The notes under the pieces are model-generated. The model was not told the DNA's origin. It made no database searches and saw nothing but the letters and a program-made list of their open reading frames with translations. Of a stretch of 64,000 nucleotides of DNA, positions 29,873 to 48,774 are shown in pieces. A program made the position numbers and the translations under genes. The stretch is from the NCBI GenBank assembly GCA_003313425.1, contig NHZP01000005.1, forward strand, positions 1,550,001 through 1,614,000. Reading direction: 5' to 3'. The DNA comes from Pseudopyrenochaeta lycopersici (taxonomy: Eukaryota; Ascomycota; Dothideomycetes; Pleosporales; Pseudopyrenochaetaceae). Within the stretch, counting starts at the first letter, position 1. Each line of letters starts with the position of its first letter.

Positions 29873-31432
29873 CTAGAAACCGAAACCAGGGAAACCGCCA
29901 CCCTGCTGGAACTGGAAGCTACCACCAGGGAACCCGCCTTGCCTGAACATGAATTGCTGACCGCCTCCACCAAAGGGTGAGCCGTGGAAGGGATTACCCT
30001 GCTGCTCGGTGCTGTTTGGATCGTCACCGTGGTCAAAGCGCTGCTTGAGTTCAGGATCGGAGAGAACTTCGTAGGCCTCGTTGACGGCAGCCATTTTCTT
30101 CTGCGCATCTTCCGGGGTGATGTTGTTGGCCGTGGCTTTGTCGGGGTGGTAGAGCTTGCTCAGCTTTCGGTAGGCTTTCTTGATTTCGCGCTCGTCGGCG
30201 TCGCGGGTTATGCCGAGGACTTTGTAGTAGTCTTTTGTCTTTGAGCGTTTGAGGAGGGTGTGTGCTTTGTGGTGAAGTTCGTCCAGCTTCTGGTGGTGGT
30301 GGTGCTCCTTTGCGAGGTCAAGCGTGCGTACGCAGTCTTCGAATTCATCCGCTTCGAGCTGCTGCTGGGCCTTGTGGAGTAGGCCGTGGAGCGAGTGGGG
30401 ATTGAGTTGCAGGGCTTCCGAACAGTATGGAGTGCCTTTCTTGAGGTTGTTCATCTCGATGTAGGCTTCACAGGTCATCTCTACGATGGTCTGGTACAAG
30501 CCCTGGGGCGAGTTCTTGTAGATGTACCCTGCCTCGATGTAGTCCTGGAAGTCTTGCTTGACCTCTTTCAGGAGGCCGGGATCTTCCTCACCGCGGTCGA
30601 TGAGGAGCTTCGATGCGGTGGCGAATTGGCGCTTCTCGAAGAATGATCGCACCTTTTTCAGTGATTTTTCAAGATTCTTTTCACGTCTCCGGAGCTTCAT
30701 GCAAGCCTTTGAGTCGGGATCTGACTGCAGACATTGCGCGATGTGCTTGAGGCCCTTGTCGGTTTCACCCAGGGAGTAGAAGGCCATGGCGGAGCTCTGG
30801 AGGTGGGGCTCGATGTCGCCCGTGTTGATCTGGAGGAGATGTTGCAGGTCGCTGATGCCCTCGACAACCTCGCCCTTCTCGAAGCGACAGGTAGCGCGCA
30901 TCTTCCGGATGTCGTATGCTGCGCCGGCAACCAAGATGGCAGTTCCCGCGTGGGTGACGCATGCCTCCCAGTCGCCCTTGGAGACTGCCTCTTCGGCCAT
31001 AAGGGCAGCCGCCTGTGCCTCCTCGAGCTGGGCGATCTCATCGGCCTTGCCCGCGGCCTCGTAGTCCTTCCGTGCGGCAGCCCAGTCGGCCTTCCTGGCT
31101 TTGATCTTGGCCCTCTGCACCAAGGCGCCCTCGAAGCCGGGCTTCAGCTGCAGCACCTTGTCGAAGTCATTCTGGGCCTGCAGCGTGCGCCCAAGCGAGA
31201 GGTAGGCAGCGCCGCGCCTGAAGAAGGTGAGGTAGTTCTGCGGGTCGCGGGCGATGGCCACGTCGAAGTAGACGAGGGCCTCCTGCGTGTTGCCGGTCGC
31301 GAGCTTCACGCTGGCGTCTTTGATGAGCTGCGACACGGGCGTGTCTGCTGCAATGTCCGAGGGGGAGAGCGCGCGCGCGAGGGGGCTCGCTGACAGAAGC
31401 CCAAGGGCAATTGATGACAGCCGGATGATCAT
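29873..31432 (-). CDS. ER luminal J-domain co-chaperone with TPRs (DNAJC3/P58IPK homologue)
   Basis: Single exon, 519 residues. A signal peptide (about 1-22, ending ARAL) sends it to the ER. TPR repeats fill residues 30-395 (for example AIARDPQNYLTFFRRGAAYL and LQLNPHSLHGLLHKAQQ). The J domain follows at about 404-475 (KDYYKVLGI and YHPDKA, with the HPD motif that activates BiP/Kar2 ATPase). A Gly/Phe-rich tail ends in FPGFGF. Together with Kar2 it should bind misfolded secretory proteins during ER stress. The domain order and length agree with fungal and animal DNAJC3. There is no HDEL-type tail. It lies head to head with the GH5 gene. Confidence 0.93.
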   Translation of the reverse strand: MIIRLSSIALGLLSASPLARALSPSDIAADTPVSQLIKDASVKLATGNTQEALVYFDVAIARDPQNYLTFFRRGAAYLSLGRTLQAQNDFDKVLQLKPGFEGALVQRAKIKARKADWAAARKDYEAAGKADEIAQLEEAQAAALMAEEAVSKGDWEACVTHAGTAILVAGAAYDIRKMRATCRFEKGEVVEGISDLQHLLQINTGDIEPHLQSSAMAFYSLGETDKGLKHIAQCLQSDPDSKACMKLRRREKNLEKSLKKVRSFFEKRQFATASKLLIDRGEEDPGLLKEVKQDFQDYIEAGYIYKNSPQGLYQTIVEMTCEAYIEMNNLKKGTPYCSEALQLNPHSLHGLLHKAQQQLEADEFEDCVRTLDLAKEHHHHQKLDELHHKAHTLLKRSKTKDYYKVLGITRDADEREIKKAYRKLSKLYHPDKATANNITPEDAQKKMAAVNEAYEVLSDPELKQRFDHGDDPNSTEQQGNPFHGSPFGGGGQQFMFRQGGFPGGSFQFQQGGGFPGFGF

Positions 31433-34864: not shown

Positions 34865-37800
34865 ATGGACGCTGGCCCTGCCCACACCCCGCAAGCCGCC
34901 GTCACAAATGGCGGCGGCCCTGCCACGGCGCCCTCGGACCTCTCGCAGGTTCTGGAGGCCCTGCAAGCCATCTACGCCCCGAACTCGAGCAACGACACGC
35001 GCCGGCAAGCCACCGAGTACCTCGAGCAGGCGAAAAGACACCCCGAAGCTCCTTCCCACGGCCACACCCTCGCCCTCGACCGCGCGCAGCCCGCCCAGCT
35101 CCGCCACTATGGCCTCACCATGCTCGAGTACTCGATCCGCTATAGCTGGGAGGACTTCACCGTCGAGCAGGGGACTGCGCTGCGAGGCTACGCGATTGAG
35201 CTGGCGCAGAACATTGCGGAGAGCGACCCGAGCTATCTGAGGAACAAGGTCGCCCAGCTATGGATTGAGATCGCAAAGCGCAGTTGGGGCGCCGAGTGGC
35301 TGGATATGGACGAGCAGCTCGTCTCGCTGTGGACCAACTCGCTGCATCACCAGGCCGTTGTGCTGTACGTGCTGGAGACGCTGTCCGAGGAGGTTTTCAA
35401 CCGCGAGGATGCCACTGCAGGCCTGCGAGGCAGCGACCTGGGACGTGCGTGCGTCGAGATTTTCACCTCCATCACTGTACTGCAGGAGCAGCTGCCTACG
35501 AGGGACAAGAGCCTGGAGGTGAGGTGCGGCGACGACGGCTGGCTGCGGCGGTTATGTGACAACCTGGGCTGGTGTCTCGCACAGGACTATCAGAACCAAG
35601 AGCCTGTTCGGACAAGCGCAGTCAAGACGATGAATGCGCTGCGCGCGGCAATGCCGTGGATAATACCAAAGGCAATCTCGGCGACCCAGGTCATCGAGGC
35701 TGTTTGCAAGGCGCTCGCGGTTCCCGTCGTAGAGATGCAGCTGGTATGTCTTGCACATGCTTCTATGCGCATATTGCTAATACACACTAGGCCGCTGTCG
35801 AAGTCCTGCAAGCCATCTACACGCGCCACCACCTCCACAGCGACGAGTTTGTCGAACTGGTGTGCCCAATGTTCACACCAGGAAGCGTCTCGCTTCTGCG
35901 CGAAGTCTACAACTGGACCTTGGCAGACATGAACGTCAACGACATTGATGACCAAAAGTACACGCTGTGCAAAAAGCTGTCTGAGGTATGCTCACCCCTG
36001 CAATGATCGCCTAACCCCTGAAGCCTTACTAAGGGATGCAGCTGGCCAATAGTCTTGGACTGTTCATCGAGCAGAAACCTCAATCCATCCCCGAAGGCAG
36101 TGATCTAGCAGGCATGTTTGGCTTCCTCTACGATATTATGCGAAACCCAAGTCTTGTCGTTTCGATACCTGTTCTTCACTGCTGGACCAAGTTGTTGCGG
36201 TCGCGCATCGTGAGAGACTCTGATGCCGTCTCCTCTATGGTTGGCGGCCTCCTCGAGACGTGCTGTGCACGATTGATCCGGTACGAAGCGCTGCCAGAAG
36301 ACACCGAAGACGTCACTCTACAGTTCTTGAACGAGGACATTGACACAGTCCCCGAGCGACACGCTTTCTTGGGCAACTACCGAAGATTTTGTGCAGATGT
36401 CATTGAAGTCCTTGTTCGAAAGACACCAGTCGAGGCCATGGAACACATACTCGGCCAGGCAACGAACATGCTCCAAAACCTATACAACGACCAGCCACCT
36501 TTCCAACCTCAGACATTCTCCAAACACTCCACTCCAGTGCTTCAGGTTGATGCTCAAGTTACTGTCATCGAAGCCGCATTAAAAGGCTACATGAAGTGGA
36601 TCACGACACAGGGAGAGGACGCACAAGACGATGAGCGGAAACGAAACACCGTCGAGAACTCGCTGGAAGAGTGGGGCAGACAGATCCTGCAGGCACGGTT
36701 TGACGACCCCGAGATCGCAAGAAAAATTATCTCGTTAATGTCAAGCCTCTCGACGAAGGCTTTGGGTGACCGTCCTGCATTCGCACTCACTTTCCTCGAG
36801 TACATACTCACAATCAGGCTAGCAGACAACACTGCCTTCCCGCAATACTCGGATGCAGTCAAAGACCTCGAGCGTATATGTAGCTTGGAGATGCAGAAGC
36901 TGGCGATGAAGTTCGCCGATGACTTTATGAATGTCTATGAACAACTAGAAACTAAGGTCAATGAAATGATCAATGACCCTACGACTGACGAGCGCCAACG
37001 CATGGCATATTCCGCCTTTCTTTTCATCATTATTCATAGATCCACTACACTGGACCGCACGGCGCAGGAAGAGCGCATGAGACAGATGCTGAACCAGGTC
37101 AAAGACGCATGGCGCAACGAAGAATTCACCACAGCCATCTCGTCTTTCCAGTCCTTCTGTGGCATCCTGGGTATGAGCCAGTTGCCCGACTTTCTTTCCG
37201 CAAACAACTTCCGAGGGGTTCAAGATTGGTCTGACCAGCCACTTCCCATTGATGGCCAAACTCTGCAGGCTTCAATATTGGAAAGGTCGCAACATCTTCC
37301 ATTGCGACTTACGAAGACCTTGCTTGCTGCCTCGACGGAGAAGTTGCGTGATGGATCTCCAGCATACGAGATTGCTGCTATCCTGTGGGCTGAGGCAATT
37401 CCCGTCCTGCTTCCCAACCTCCTCCAGCTTGTTAGCCATGCGCAAGCATTTAATGATATAGACAGCAACTGGTCACATTTGCCCGCGGACCTACAGCAGG
37501 TCCTGCGAAGGGTCCTGACCGATCGGTTCTGGCAAGCTGGAATCTCGACAGAGAGCAGAGATGACTTCTTTGCAAGAGTGAGCGGATCAAAGTCTACCTT
37601 TGAGGGTTTTGCGTCCACTGTCAGAGGCACTGTGCGGCAGATTAGGGAGAGCTCATACTATATCCTCTACTCACTAACACGATTCCGAGATTTCTTCTAC
37701 GGAATTCAAGACTTGCCCGGACCGTTGAGCCAGGCGCTATTTGGCCACGCCGGCGCATTGACTGCTCACCACCTATCTGTCCTGCTGACAGTGTCAACAC

Positions 37801-38736
37801 ACCTCATCGAGGGATGTCCATCTCAGCTGAGACCTCATTTTCTCCCGCCAATGATACAGGGCTTGTTTAGGGAACTGGACCGGAAGATATCAGCAGAGTG
37901 GAGCGAGGTTGCTCGTCAAGTGGTGGAGTCGGGGGACAACGATAACTTGACAGATGAGATGAAGACAGAGAGCATCCTCCGTCAACTCACCTATTCATCT
38001 GTCTCGCTTGTCGCTGTCCTGCTCGATTCGAGACAGGGTAAGTTTGGTCTCAGAGACAAAGCGATCAGCTTTGTTAACTTTTTATATGCGTTGCTCACAT
38101 GTTATAGAATTTGCCCGGCAAGACGAACACATCCGTCGGGATGCAAACAGTCCACCAATGTGCGACTTCATCCTCGCCACTCCCTCCGTACTCGAGCCTA
38201 TCCTGCTTTTCTGCAATTCCACCATCCGCGTCCGCGACACTCGATCTGTTGTGACCATCGTTCGTGTCCTGCGCACTTTGCTTTCGCGATTCAAAGAGAA
38301 GAGCCCTATCAGGGACTACTACTGTAATGATATTCTCAAATCAGCTATTACCTCTCTCCACGAGCCTTACTTTGTAGATTGCCAGAAGGAACTGGCATCC
38401 CTCATTGCGGGCATTATCCACCTCGACGAAGACATCCCTCGGTCCATAATTCTCTCGCTGCCAGGCATGGGCGACCAGTACCGCGTGGATCGCCGGTTAG
38501 CGAAACTCAGGGGTGCTAATCGCCAGGACGAACGAATGCAGCGCAGCATAGTGCTGGATCTGCTAAGCAGTATCAAAGGAGTCAGCATCCACGAACAGGG
38601 CAAGATTCAGCGCCCGCAGCCAAAGAAGAAGAGCGTGCTCATGGAACAATATATGAGCGTGGACCAGCAGCCGGCGATTGTGCGGGGCACAAGCCCGGGG
38701 CTGGCAGGCGTGGCGGACATGTTTGGAGAGTCATAA
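34865..38736 (+). CDS. MSN5: Karyopherin MSN5 / exportin-5 homologue
   Basis: Four exons (34865-35743, 35791-35985, 36042-38037 and 38108-38736, with introns of 47, 56 and 70 nt) give 1232 residues, the size of Msn5/exportin-5. The N-terminal region matches the family, with LEALQAIYAPNSSNDTRRQA then HYGLTMLEYSIRYSW (importin-beta N-terminal, Ran-binding). A WIEIAKRSWG segment is followed by an Xpo1-like block. The rest is helical HEAT-type repeats to a basic tail (QRPQPKKKSVL). Msn5 exports phosphorylated transcription factors and imports some complexes in yeast. Exportin-5 in animals exports small structured RNAs. The cargo here is not evident. All splice joins keep frame and protein continuity. 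Confidence 0.92.
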
Positions 38737-43983: not shown

Positions 43984-44895
43984 CTAATATGCTTCGACAT
44001 CCAGCCCCGACCTCCACTCCAGTTCAATCTGCCAGGCTAGTATGTAGGGATGCTTAATGACAACCATGTCATGCGCCAACTTCAGCACCTTGTCTCTCTT
44101 CTCTGCCTTCTCACCCGCAGGCAGCACAAGCAGAGTATCATACGCCCGCCCTAGAAGCTTCTCCTCATAGTCCCTCCGCAGATCGTCATCGTTTGTCCAA
44201 TTGATAATTTCCTCATATATGCCTTCCAGTGGGCTCGTTGCATAGATCTCGTTCTTGACCGACTTGGTGGTGCTCTCAAGGGTCGCGCCAATGCGTGTCT
44301 TGCGCTCGTCGATCAGCTTCTTGATTGTTTGGGCTTCTTGTGTCTCGTGAATCTCGGCGATACGTGTGTACGTCTTGGATGGGTCTGGTAATCGGCCTTC
44401 AAGATACGAGTATACAGGCGAAGAAGGCAGTTGTGTAGCGAGTGCTTGCGCGTACTGCGTTTTGGTGCCGTGCCTGCGGGCTTGGTCGACGAGCTTATCG
44501 ATTGCGGATTGGGAGCGGTGGGCGTCGTCGCTATTGCCATTAGTCCAGTCCTTATGGCTGCCAGCTGCAGGCGCATACAGGTTCATATAGATTTCGGCCA
44601 ATGTCAGCCCTACTTCGATATTCTCCTCCACCTTGGACGGGCCCAGGCCCTCGTACATGCCCCTCAGACCCAACCACGCCTGAGGGTCTTCAGGTTTGAT
44701 CTTGGTCGCGTCATTGTACGCTCTGGCCGCCTCTTCATAATTCTTTAGCCCATCATTTGCGCGTCCTAGGAATAATTTCGCAAAGTAGTTGTTGGCGTCC
44801 TTTTCGAGCACTGCGTTTGCGTGCTCCTTAGCTTCCTCCCATTTCTTCGTGTCAATGGCGGATTTAGCGGCCTTAAGCGACGTCTTGGTCGACAT
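43984..44895 (-). CDS. SKI3: SKI3 N-terminal part as a separate gene (TPR protein)
   Basis: Ski3 is the TPR scaffold of the cytoplasmic Ski complex (Ski2-Ski3-Ski8) that feeds mRNA to the exosome. This single-exon ORF of 303 residues matches only the start of Ski3. It has TPRs at about 1-75 (MSTKTSLKAAKSAID, LEKDANNYFAKLFLG and IKPEDPQAWLGL), a middle region with PSSPVYSYLEGRLPDPSKTY, then RKTRIGATLEST, EEIINWTNDDDLRRDYEEKL and a tail HPYILAWQIELEWRSG, stopping after DVEAY. In ordinary Ski3 the sequence continues straight into the LRQFVELFP segment, which here starts the plus-strand gene at 45227. The ORF is intact and there is no splice donor at its end. It looks like a 5' gene fragment flipped by a local inversion. 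Whether it is expressed cannot be told. Confidence 0.85.
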   Translation of the reverse strand: MSTKTSLKAAKSAIDTKKWEEAKEHANAVLEKDANNYFAKLFLGRANDGLKNYEEAARAYNDATKIKPEDPQAWLGLRGMYEGLGPSKVEENIEVGLTLAEIYMNLYAPAAGSHKDWTNGNSDDAHRSQSAIDKLVDQARRHGTKTQYAQALATQLPSSPVYSYLEGRLPDPSKTYTRIAEIHETQEAQTIKKLIDERKTRIGATLESTTKSVKNEIYATSPLEGIYEEIINWTNDDDLRRDYEEKLLGRAYDTLLVLPAGEKAEKRDKVLKLAHDMVVIKHPYILAWQIELEWRSGLDVEAY

Positions 44896-45226
44896 GGCGG
44901 GGTATAGTGACTGCCAAAAGGTGCTTGAGCCGTCAACACGGCGCTATATGCGTTATGAATGTTCCATTGAGGGGTGAAAGCTGGCGTGGAGGGGGCTAGT
45001 GGCATGTTTAATCGCAAGTCATGACGTTGCGCTAGTGCGGAATCTAACCTCAGCCCTACAGGAACACACAAACACCAACGGCGGCCATTCTCCAGTCCCG
45101 TGAGTGGCATCGCCTCACTCTTTTACACCTCTGCACGTTCCTTACGCCGCACATCTTTTCTCTAGTGAGCATTGCCTGGAGTTTTGCATAGCGCCGCAAG
45201 GGGCCAAAAAAGTTTCCGTAGGCGCC
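44896..45226. promoter_or_regulatory. SKI3: Bidirectional promoter interval between the two SKI3 parts
   Basis: 331 nt between the two start codons. If an inversion split SKI3, this interval is the old SKI3 promoter, still driving the N-terminal part. Its former distal edge now serves as promoter for the C-terminal part. No specific motif was identified. Confidence 0.5.
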
Positions 45227-48200
45227 ATGGCGTCACACGCGGACAGTGCGCACGACCTGCTCGATCTCGATATTTCGACATTGCGGCAGTTTGTGGAACT
45301 GTTCCCGACTGAAGGGCTTTCCAAAGTCATTACAGGTTACCTAAGCAGTGGTATATCAAAGTATCCGCTCACACAAGATGGCGACTCACAGGAAGGGCCG
45401 GACCTGAGCGAGGGTGGGGTAGCTCTAACGCAGGATGTACCGGTCTCGCAGGAGGACTGTCTGGTGTTGATGACTGTAAGCGATCAATCTTGAAGCCGTT
45501 ATTTGGCTCGACATGTGTCTTCAACTACTGATAGAATGACAGGAAGGCATATCAGAGGCCGAGAAATCGCCGCTTGCCCACTGCTTGCTTGGAGATTTCT
45601 ACCTCTCCCTAGAAGAATATGAAAGTGCCGTGGAAATCACAAGGAAAGGTCTGAAGTATGCTGCAGCTGAGGCTAAGAAGACTGATTTGTCTTTCCAGAG
45701 GTTGGTAGTGAGTACACTTTAACATCTAGCAGTGCGCTAATGTCTCCAGAACGCGCGATGCTCTAAATAGCACACTCGCAACTGCCTTGGTTTACCATCA
45801 AGCGCCAAGGAATCACCCCGAAGCCAAAGACATTTTTCAGTCAATTTTAAAGCGCAAGCCGCAATTCACTTCTTCTCTCATTGGTATCGGATTGGTCCTG
45901 GAGGAAGAGGGGGAGTATGAGCAGGCATTTCAATTCCTTGAGCAGGCTTTAGAGCAGGATCCCGAGAACGGCCGCATAGGTGCCGAGTCTGCTTGGTGCC
46001 AGGCTCTCGCTGGCGACTATAAAGCAGGCTTGGAAAGGCTTGAAAGCTACCTGGACTATCCCCAACTGGATGCTTCAAAGCAGCGCGGCCGAGAACTGCG
46101 TGCGCAGACCTTGTATAGGATAGGTGTATGTATCTGGGAACTGGACTCGTCCAAGGCTGCACGCAAAAACCGAAACGGAGCGTATGCGAAACTGCTCGCA
46201 GCGATCAAGGCGAATCCGAACTATGCGCCGGCATATACTCTGCTTGGTATTTTCTACGAGGACTACAACAAAGATCGAAAACGCGCTAGACAATGCTTTC
46301 AAAAGGCTTTCGAATTGTCACCGTCTGAAATCGTTGCAGCAGAACGTCTTGCCCGACTTTTTGCCAATCAAGGCGAATGGGATATCGTCGAAGTCGTCTC
46401 ACAGCGAGTGGTCGACTCGGGTAAAGCACGACAGATGCCAGGGTCGAAGAGAAAGGGCGTTAGCTGGCCATTCTCAGCGCTTGGCGTCGTCCAAATGAAC
46501 AAGCAGGAGTACCAGAAGAGCATCGTATCTTTCTTGTCAGCTCTCCGTATAAGACCAGATGACTACTACTCGTATGTTGGTCTTGGAGAGAGTTATCACA
46601 ATTCTGGGCGATATAATTCTGCCAGTCGCGCTTTCAACTACGCTGAAAATCCTACTGACGGCGTCGTCTTCAAAAAAGCCGCTGACGAGAGCTGGTTTAC
46701 GAAGTACATGCTCGCCAACGTCAACCGCGAATTGAGCGAATTTGACGAGGCTCTTCGAGGATACGAAGCAGTCTTGGTTGATCGGCCGAAAGAATTTGGC
46801 GTATCACTTGCACTTCTCCAAACCCTCGTGGAGAAAGGCTGGCATTGTGTCCAAACAGGGTTTTTTGGGGAAGCAATCGATAGCGCTAATCGAGCTATTG
46901 AAGTCGCTGCCACCATTGCTGAATACAAAGCGGACGCCTTCAACCTGTGGAAAGCCGTTGGCGATGCGTGTAGCTTGTTCAGCTGGGTGCAAGAGAAACT
47001 GACGCTTTTTCCTGCTGAAAACGTCGAAAAATTGTTGCGCAGCACGTCGGAGGTTGGAGTTGACTTCAATGCACACAAGGCTATGGATGGAATCGGACAA
47101 GATGCCCTGCTCTCACTTTCCGAGGGGAACGACTCCGCCCTCACAAAAGTGCTGAAGGCATCAATTCTCGCACAAAAGCGAGCAATCTCCAGCTGTGCTC
47201 ATGATATACACGCGCAAGCTGTAGCATGGTATAATCTCGGCTGGATCGAGTACCGAGCTCATGTATGTCTCGAGCAAGAGGGTACTGATGAGCCAAATCT
47301 TACGACCTTCCTTCGCGCCGCCATGAAGTGTTTCAAACAAGCTATTGAGCTTGAGGCTGGCAACGCCGAATTCTGGAACTCACTCGGTGTTATAACTACA
47401 ACGCTTAGTCCAAAAGTTGCCCAGCACGCCTTTGTTCGATCTCTACATCTCAATGAGCGTAGTGTACATACATGGACGAATCTCGGTGCATTGTACCTGT
47501 TGCAAAATGACCTTGAGCTCGCACACCAAGCCTTCTCACGAGCCCAATCTCAGGACCCTGATTATTCCCTCGCTTGGTTGGGCGAAGGCCTTGTTGCGCT
47601 TGTTACTGGCGACGCGATCGAAGCACTTTCCCATTTCACACATGCTTTTGAACTTTCAGAATCATCATTGCTCTTGACGAAACGTCAGTACGCGGTTTCG
47701 GCATTTGACTTCCTCGTTTCGTCGCCATCATCCAGGAGCAATATCACCAACCTTATTCAACCCCTCTTCGCTCTTCAACAGCTCAACATTCAAGCACCGT
47801 ACGACCTCTCGCACAAGCATCTCACTGCTCTCTTCTTTGAACGTATTGGCAACCACGACGCAGCTGTGAGTGCATTGCAGGCTGTTACTGAAAATGTGGA
47901 GCAGGAATACGAGAAGTCTGAATCACTACTGTCTTTGGCTCGTGTTGCGCAAGCAAAGACTGATCTAGCACGCAACCTGCTCGCTGTAGGATCCAATGAG
48001 AATGCAGTTGAGGAGGCAGAAACAGCGCTGGATCTGCTTTCCGAACTCGACAGCGATTCCAGCCAATCAGCGCTATCTGTCGAACAACTATCCAAAGTTA
48101 AGATATCAGCACGCCTTACGGCCGGACTAGCACATTATTTCAAGGGGGCACTTGACGCTGCAATCCCATACTTTCGCACCTCGATTGAATCCACCGGCGC

Positions 48201-48774
48201 CGACCCCGATATCATCTGCCTTCTTGCCGAGGTACAATGGGCAAAGGGCGGCGAAGACGAGAAGCAAGTTGCACGCGATCAACTTTTCAATGCGATTGAA
48301 AAGCATGAGGGTCATGTCGGTCTTCTGACCTTAATTGGTGCAATGACGGTGCTTGACGATGACTTGGAGACTATGGAAGCAATCAAAGACGACTTAGACC
48401 GCTTGCGCACAGACAAAGGTCTTAGCGACCAACAACTCGCTCGTGTGGAGGAGGTAGTCGAGGCTATCTCAATCTGTCTCGGAGGAAAGGAACAGGAGCT
48501 CCATGAAGCGCGACGGAGCATTATACTCGCGCCATGGAAGCATACAGGATGGTCAGAACTCGCCGATGCTGCCGATGGTGATATTTTTGCGAGCACGCTA
48601 GCGAAAGAAACAGCAACGAGAAATGCGCCTCCCCACGGGGCACTGGATGCAGTCAGCTTAGCAAGTGCGATAGCCTCCTCGGGTGATGTAAGAGATGCGC
48701 AAAGGGCGGTCATGCTTGCGCCTTGGTGCAAAGATAGCTGGACTGGATTGGTGGAGTATGTTAGGGCTGCTTGA
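45227..48774 (+). CDS. SKI3: SKI3 C-terminal part as a separate gene (TPR scaffold of the Ski complex)
   Basis: Three exons (45227-45475, 45543-45700 and 45750-48774, with introns of 67 and 49 nt) give 1143 residues. The second intron needs a GTTGGT donor, chosen because it alone keeps frame and continuity (FQR joined to TRDALN). After about 13 non-conserved residues (MASHADSAHD...) the protein enters Ski3 at LDISTLRQFVELFPTEGLSK. It continues through many TPRs (NHPEAKDIFQSILKRKPQF, then NPNYAPAYTLLGIFYEDY and FWNSLGVITTTLSPKVAQHAF) to the conserved C-terminus (AVMLAPWCKDSW). The part that contacts Ski2 and Ski8 should be here. With the minus-strand part (303 residues) the total is 1446, the normal Ski3 length. 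A local inversion of about 1.25 kb explains the split. Confidence 0.88.

Follow-up and report, generated by a model that had tools for sequence, protein, structure and literature searches.

The window analysed here is a stretch of 64,000 nucleotides from the ascomycete Pseudopyrenochaeta lycopersici (assembly GCA_003313425.1, contig NHZP01000005.1, positions 1,550,001 to 1,614,000 of the forward strand; coordinates below count from the first letter of the window). A preliminary description of this DNA had claimed that the gene SKI3 is split into two divergently transcribed genes, and both are indeed present, an open reading frame (ORF) at 43984-44895 on the minus strand and a gene starting with the ATG at 45227 on the plus strand. 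Instead of the one continuous polypeptide that is the usual architecture of Ski3 we find two genes; in our view a single chain is customary in this family, not defining.

The minus-strand gene, SKI3-N (43984..44895), encodes the N-terminal arm of Ski3 as a protein of its own. The ORF has 303 codons and ends with GLDVEAY followed by the stop codon. It carries the tetratricopeptide repeat (TPR) family TPR_22 (Pfam PF18833, E 1.2e-29) and aligns to yeast Ski3 in two stretches, residues 5-89 and 160-296, the yeast match stopping just short of the break; one stretch also matches residues 31-116 of human TTC37. Alignment with the relatives predicts an in-frame intron of 48 bp (GT..CTAAT..AG) at 44531..44578 on the minus strand. 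The 16 residues encoded by it (YAPAAGSHKDWTNGNS) are missing in 18 of the 21 aligned relatives, and the other three, all metagenome ORFs, have dissimilar inserts at the same site, which fits a conserved intron that ORF calling leaves in the reading frame. Since the ORF spans this intron, the mature product probably has 287 amino acids (aa) and not 303. Column identity averages 68% over 22 sequences. An alignment with 34 one-piece Ski3 proteins shows that the last eight codons (SGLDVEAY, 43987..44010, minus strand) lie past the ancestral end ...LEWK/R and mark one of the two break points.

The remainder of Ski3 is encoded by SKI3-C (45227..48774, plus strand), which specifies 1143 aa in three exons (45227-45475, 45543-45700 and 45750-48774). 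Introns lie at 45476-45542 and at 45701-45749; the latter has the donor GTTGGT, which was picked because it keeps the frame and is consistent with the sequence of the relatives. The best relative is likewise 1143 aa long and is covered to 100%. When the 995-aa ORF of the last exon was used as the only query, residues 483-1337 of yeast Ski3 (4buj_B) were matched with an E value of 5.5e-88; for human Ski3 (7qdr_B) the E value is 1.2e-46. SKI3-C opens with a new head (MASHADSAHDLLD, 45227..45265, plus strand) which is kept across the split species, as seen in 30 species pairs, and the second break point lies nearby. The head is followed by the first helical hairpin of the protein (LDISTLRQFVELFPTEGLSKVITGYLSS, 45266..45349, plus strand), corresponding to helices 290-299 and 304-313 of a one-piece model and a candidate dock for SKI3-N. 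The two start codons are separated by 331 bp (44896..45226), and this region probably serves as a shared bidirectional promoter, to judge from the coordinates.

Together the two products amount to 287 + 1143 = 1430 aa, compared with 1425 aa for the one-piece Ski3 of Macrophomina. The ORF of the preliminary description is right, whereas its 303-aa product and its total of 1446 aa have to be shortened by the intron. A second complete SKI3 elsewhere in the genome had also been considered. An exon-by-exon search of the genome in six frames (62.7 Mb, 188 contigs), in which only the best candidates were scored, matched each half once and revealed no second or colinear copy, and the TPR_22 family has a single match in the whole genome. 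We thus find what characterizes a gene fission, complementary pieces with the ancestral total length and no intact copy. The gene for the partner helicase SKI2 is present on contig C3 (Ski2_N, PF17911, E 1.6e-39).

The N part modelled alone, using a relative that is 96% identical (P0001), is predicted to fold by itself as a helical arm (pLDDT, the per-residue confidence score, 93.7), and its best structural match is yeast Ski3. In the model of a one-piece protein (P0250) the break comes after K280, between helices 270-278 and 290-299, and a low-confidence linker (321-340) lies beyond helices 290-299 and 304-313. In this model the break falls in a loop, so that both halves keep whole helices.

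We then asked how widely the two-piece state occurs. A search with SKI3-N gave 158 proteins; among the 120 listed, 102 have at least 250 aa and 93 have 281-292 aa, and in 118 the end motif is followed by a stop within 3-15 residues. As the length limits of this search bar one-piece proteins, the search with SKI3-C, which admitted proteins of up to about 2000 aa (1.75 times the query), is the fairer test of the split. All 120 listed of its 1386 matches have 975-1243 aa (72 of them 1130-1165 aa), and the new head stands at the start of 74. Most of the remaining SKI3-C proteins start further in, and many are metagenome ORFs; the named species among those listed are all known as Pleosporales. Among the matches listed, the longest contig is equally long for N and C in 35 named species, and the two genes appear to lie on the same contig. 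The locus tags are consecutive in six species, Alternaria incomplexa, A. rosae, A. dauci, Plenodomus lingam, P. biglobosus and Boeremia exigua (e.g. J4E90_000538/000539 and IAQ61_010083/010084); in most other species pairs the tags are model numbers unrelated to position. Glonium (Gloniales), Lophium and Lepidopterella (Mytilinidiales) and Zopfia likewise have stand-alone N proteins with the same end point; their C parts are not among the listed matches. Database names vary: an N protein may be entered as 'hypothetical', 'TPR-like', 'TadD' or 'Superkiller protein 3' (e.g. P0005, P0009), a C protein as 'Superkiller protein 3', 'TPR-like' or 'protein prenylyltransferase'.

One-piece proteins were found with a joined query, scored on residues 1-360. 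It gave 174 proteins, and 108 of the 120 listed are one-piece (94 of these with at least 1370 aa); the other 12 are C-only and aligned solely past the break. The named one-piece species belong to the Botryosphaeriales (Macrophomina, Neofusicoccum, Phyllosticta, Aplosporella, Diplodia), Venturiales, Capnodiales, Dothideales, Trypetheliales and Myriangiales, and to the Eurotio-, Lecanoro- and Sordariomycetes. None of the listed one-piece names is known to belong to the Pleosporales. In yeast and in human, too, Ski3 is a single chain. Among the fungal Ski3 matches there was also a Ski3 labelled as avocado (P0323, Persea americana, MRB53_038579), which looks fungal and is probably a contamination of that assembly.

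Many species of the Pleosporales show this split with new ends that match, as do the N proteins of Gloniales and Mytilinidiales, which speaks against a misassembly, a recent event and the dispensable N part considered in the preliminary description. An assembly error, or a break that arose recently in this strain, is at odds with the annotation of the split in many other species and with the common grouping of the split proteins. We found no evidence in favour of such an origin, which is ruled out by the distribution and to which we give practically no weight.

The trees point to a single cut. In a tree of 71 hand-chosen rows, 37 split and 34 fused, the labels need a single change (Shimodaira-Hasegawa-like approximate likelihood ratio test, SH-aLRT, 84), compared with a mean of 23.9 for shuffled labels; the rows comprise 30 of the 35 species pairs, P. 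lycopersici, 34 fused proteins out of 108, and six N-only proteins, the latter filling only about 20% of the columns. The halves were also analysed separately. No fused row falls inside the N-only group in a tree of 102 N-only and 107 fused proteins (support 0.998), nor inside the C-only group in a tree of 120 C-only and 107 fused proteins (support 0.983); these trees leave aside 18 of the 120 N matches, each shorter than 250 aa, as well as the fused protein P0250 with its 1118 aa. Because the trees of each half put none of the examined one-piece proteins among the stand-alone ones, we conclude from the sequences that the SKI3 split is one old fission and the two-piece state derived. Split-type proteins are found in Bipolaris (N and C, P0051 and P0143) and in Parastagonospora nodorum (C-only, P0162, 1139 aa), and the split therefore predates the divergence of the two. 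For Cochliobolus and Stagonospora nodorum a separation 45-61 million years ago is given in the available passages of a study of dothideomycete genomes (PMC3516569).

Both halves are intact, as described earlier, and under constraint. Rates were compared on 31 split rows and on the 22 of the 34 fused rows that remained when four metagenome and eight non-dothideomycete sequences were set aside. At a C distance of 0.3-0.4 the ratio of N to C divergence is 1.116 for split (295 pairs) and 1.111 for fused proteins (5 pairs), and at 0.4-0.5 the two are alike; in the bins 0.1-0.2 and 0.2-0.3, with just 3 and 5 fused pairs, the fused ratio exceeds the split one. The fused pairs number only 3 to 11 per distance bin. 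The clearest signal comes from the junction, residues 269-310, where the relative rate is 0.46 in split and 1.23 in fused proteins. This is the strongest slow-down among 1363 alignment windows, and it ranks first at window sizes of 15, 20, 28, 40 and 60; 2.1% of the positions are equally slow, which does not change when residues 280-297 are removed. Such a slow-down may be explained by a new protein interface, as would be expected if the halves still join.

The layout of the locus is that expected of the local inversion proposed earlier: the P. lycopersici halves are adjacent, on opposite strands, complementary and without overlap, and flipping the segment from the end of SKI3-N to just before the start of SKI3-C makes SKI3 colinear. 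We propose that SKI3, ancestrally in one piece, was cut a single time, early in the history of the pleosporomycetid fungi, when a short segment with the promoter and the N-terminal fifth of the gene was inverted, with breaks in a loop and upstream of the promoter. The inverted promoter would have ended up between the halves and would drive both, so that neither half lost expression; because the cut went through a loop, both would have retained whole helices. The C product would then open with two helices that form a hairpin on a flexible linker; in one-piece Ski3 this hairpin extends the solenoid of the N arm. This hairpin could dock on the end of the N solenoid with the same packing as in uncut Ski3, and a Ski complex of four kinds of subunits (Ski2, Ski3N, Ski3C and Ski8) would pass mRNA to the cytoplasmic exosome. 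The four-protein complex of the preliminary description is in this sense still the best reading, with reassembly as its conditional step. To the whole account, in which an inversion split SKI3, the promoter is shared and the products rejoin non-covalently, we assign a probability of roughly three in four; the split, its distribution, single origin and conservation and the break position come from sequence, the folds from prediction, and the three steps just named are what we infer from them.

Several observations weigh against this account. The head-to-head layout is known from this window alone, the relatives being known from their proteins only, and the SKI3 break points showed neither inverted nor tandem repeats. 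The C-terminal part of the gene for the ribosome-assembly protein Rsa3 (PF14615, 43577-43819, plus strand) is convergent with SKI3-N at a distance of 164 bp. Under an inversion, Rsa3 should have been the upstream neighbour of the ancestral gene. A Neofusicoccum record (P0242), however, joins Ski3 not to Rsa3 but to an upstream LDB17-like protein with a SPIN90_LRD domain, and the expected ancestral neighbour is therefore unconfirmed. In an Aulographum Ski3 record (P0264) a MAM33-like protein is joined upstream; both records are probably gene-model mergers of neighbours. A MAM33 gene (at 815903) and a SPIN90_LRD gene (at 1192198) are found on SKI3's own contig (C5), the LDB17-like gene about 400 kb and the MAM33 gene about 780 kb from SKI3. 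These distances fit a scrambled gene order within the chromosome (mesosynteny) and are no proof of the inversion.

The halves could alternatively have arisen by duplication and complementary loss of the ends, or by transposition of one half, either of which would be compatible with reassembly. That neither repeats nor ancestral flanks proving an inversion were found is in line with such an origin. A single inversion, however, explains adjacent, opposite and complementary halves without overlap, no leftover copy was found in the genome, and intrachromosomal inversions are described as the chief mode of rearrangement in Dothideomycetes (PMC3516569, available passages). We therefore regard duplication or transposition as unlikely, while granting it some weight.

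The other adverse points come from the protein comparisons. Among the listed SKI3-C proteins 44 of the 120 lack the head (SAHD motif) and start further in, so that these alone cannot show the split. The trees disagree on the nearest one-piece lineage, the sister group being Rhizodiscina with its allies for N but Lineolata for C. Over all pairs the median ratio of N to C divergence is 1.126 for split and 0.959 for fused proteins, and tree-based site rates put the N arm, measured against the remaining protein, at 1.18 times the fused value in split proteins (about 18% faster). The slow-down at the junction could stem from constraint on the start region or from uncertain alignment, and the C hairpin alone is unexceptional (0.78 versus 1.03 in fused proteins, with 13-39% of windows as low). 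A decaying N half would be expected to show a raised rate, and the relative rate of the N arm is slightly raised. Decay is nevertheless very improbable in view of the 102 stand-alone relatives of at least 250 aa among those listed, the mean column identity of 68%, and an N/C divergence which at matched distance resembles that of one-piece proteins. We read the rate difference as mild relaxation of the N arm at most.

The slightly faster N arm would also suit a history in which both halves were kept and Ski3N is now independent, for example as an exchangeable regulator or a ribosome-facing factor, and not a constant part of the complex. In the available passages on human SKI3 the N-terminal arm is flexible and unmodelled, so that the core is visible without it (PMC8860381), and one map leaves several N-terminal TPRs unmodelled (PMC11540850, likewise in part). 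The greatest slow-down, however, is found to either side of the break, conservation extends to the new ends, and the genes are apparently on one contig in the 35 named species. Taken together this makes an independent Ski3N rather improbable, and we prefer two products that rejoin. Going further, the Pleosporomycetidae as a whole might possess a four-component Ski complex in which the N arm is separate and possibly exchangeable. As the new subunit boundary is unusually constrained, detachment of the arm may itself be regulatory and might control the hand-over of mRNA from stalled ribosomes to the exosome; we put this forward only tentatively and hold it for rather doubtful.

Two further genes of the window were noted. 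The region 29873-31432 (minus strand) encodes a protein with TPR and DnaJ parts, which resembles a DNAJC3/p58-type co-chaperone, and an Exportin-5-type gene extends across several ORFs at 34865-38736 (plus strand).

To sum up, SKI3 is a case of lineage-wide fission of a conserved complex subunit, in which a continuous TPR solenoid was cut at one loop and both pieces were kept over several fungal orders. The split accounts for the 287-aa protein, often 'hypothetical', that adjoins a seemingly truncated Ski3 in many genomes. It is a candidate derived character of the Pleosporomycetidae and, if our account is correct, an example of a small inversion splitting a gene without killing it. It is also a natural experiment on the role of the N-terminal arm, valuable because the human structures leave this flexible arm unmodelled. 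Among the best-ranked results of a literature search, whose coverage leaves out most subscription journals, we found no paper on a split SKI3.

In the known systems Ski3/TTC37, the TPR scaffold of the Ski2-Ski3-Ski8 complex, is one polypeptide (yeast 4buj, human 7qdr), whereas here it is made as two from divergent genes. The mesosynteny study of Dothideomycetes (PMC3516569) concerns gene order, and its available passages do not mention SKI3; the frequent intrachromosomal inversions reported there would be a ready source for the proposed break. In the fission of bilaterian mitochondrial cox2 (PMC5374615, available in part) a subunit of a conserved complex likewise became two complementary genes, but that case is mitochondrial and, by its title, insertional, whereas SKI3 is a nuclear TPR scaffold cut by an apparent inversion and found in this state in several fungal orders. 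Fission and fusion have likewise been used as derived phylogenetic characters for eukaryotic folate biosynthesis genes (PMC4224340, available in part); there a multi-enzyme polypeptide is concerned, whereas in SKI3 it is one continuous solenoid that was cut.

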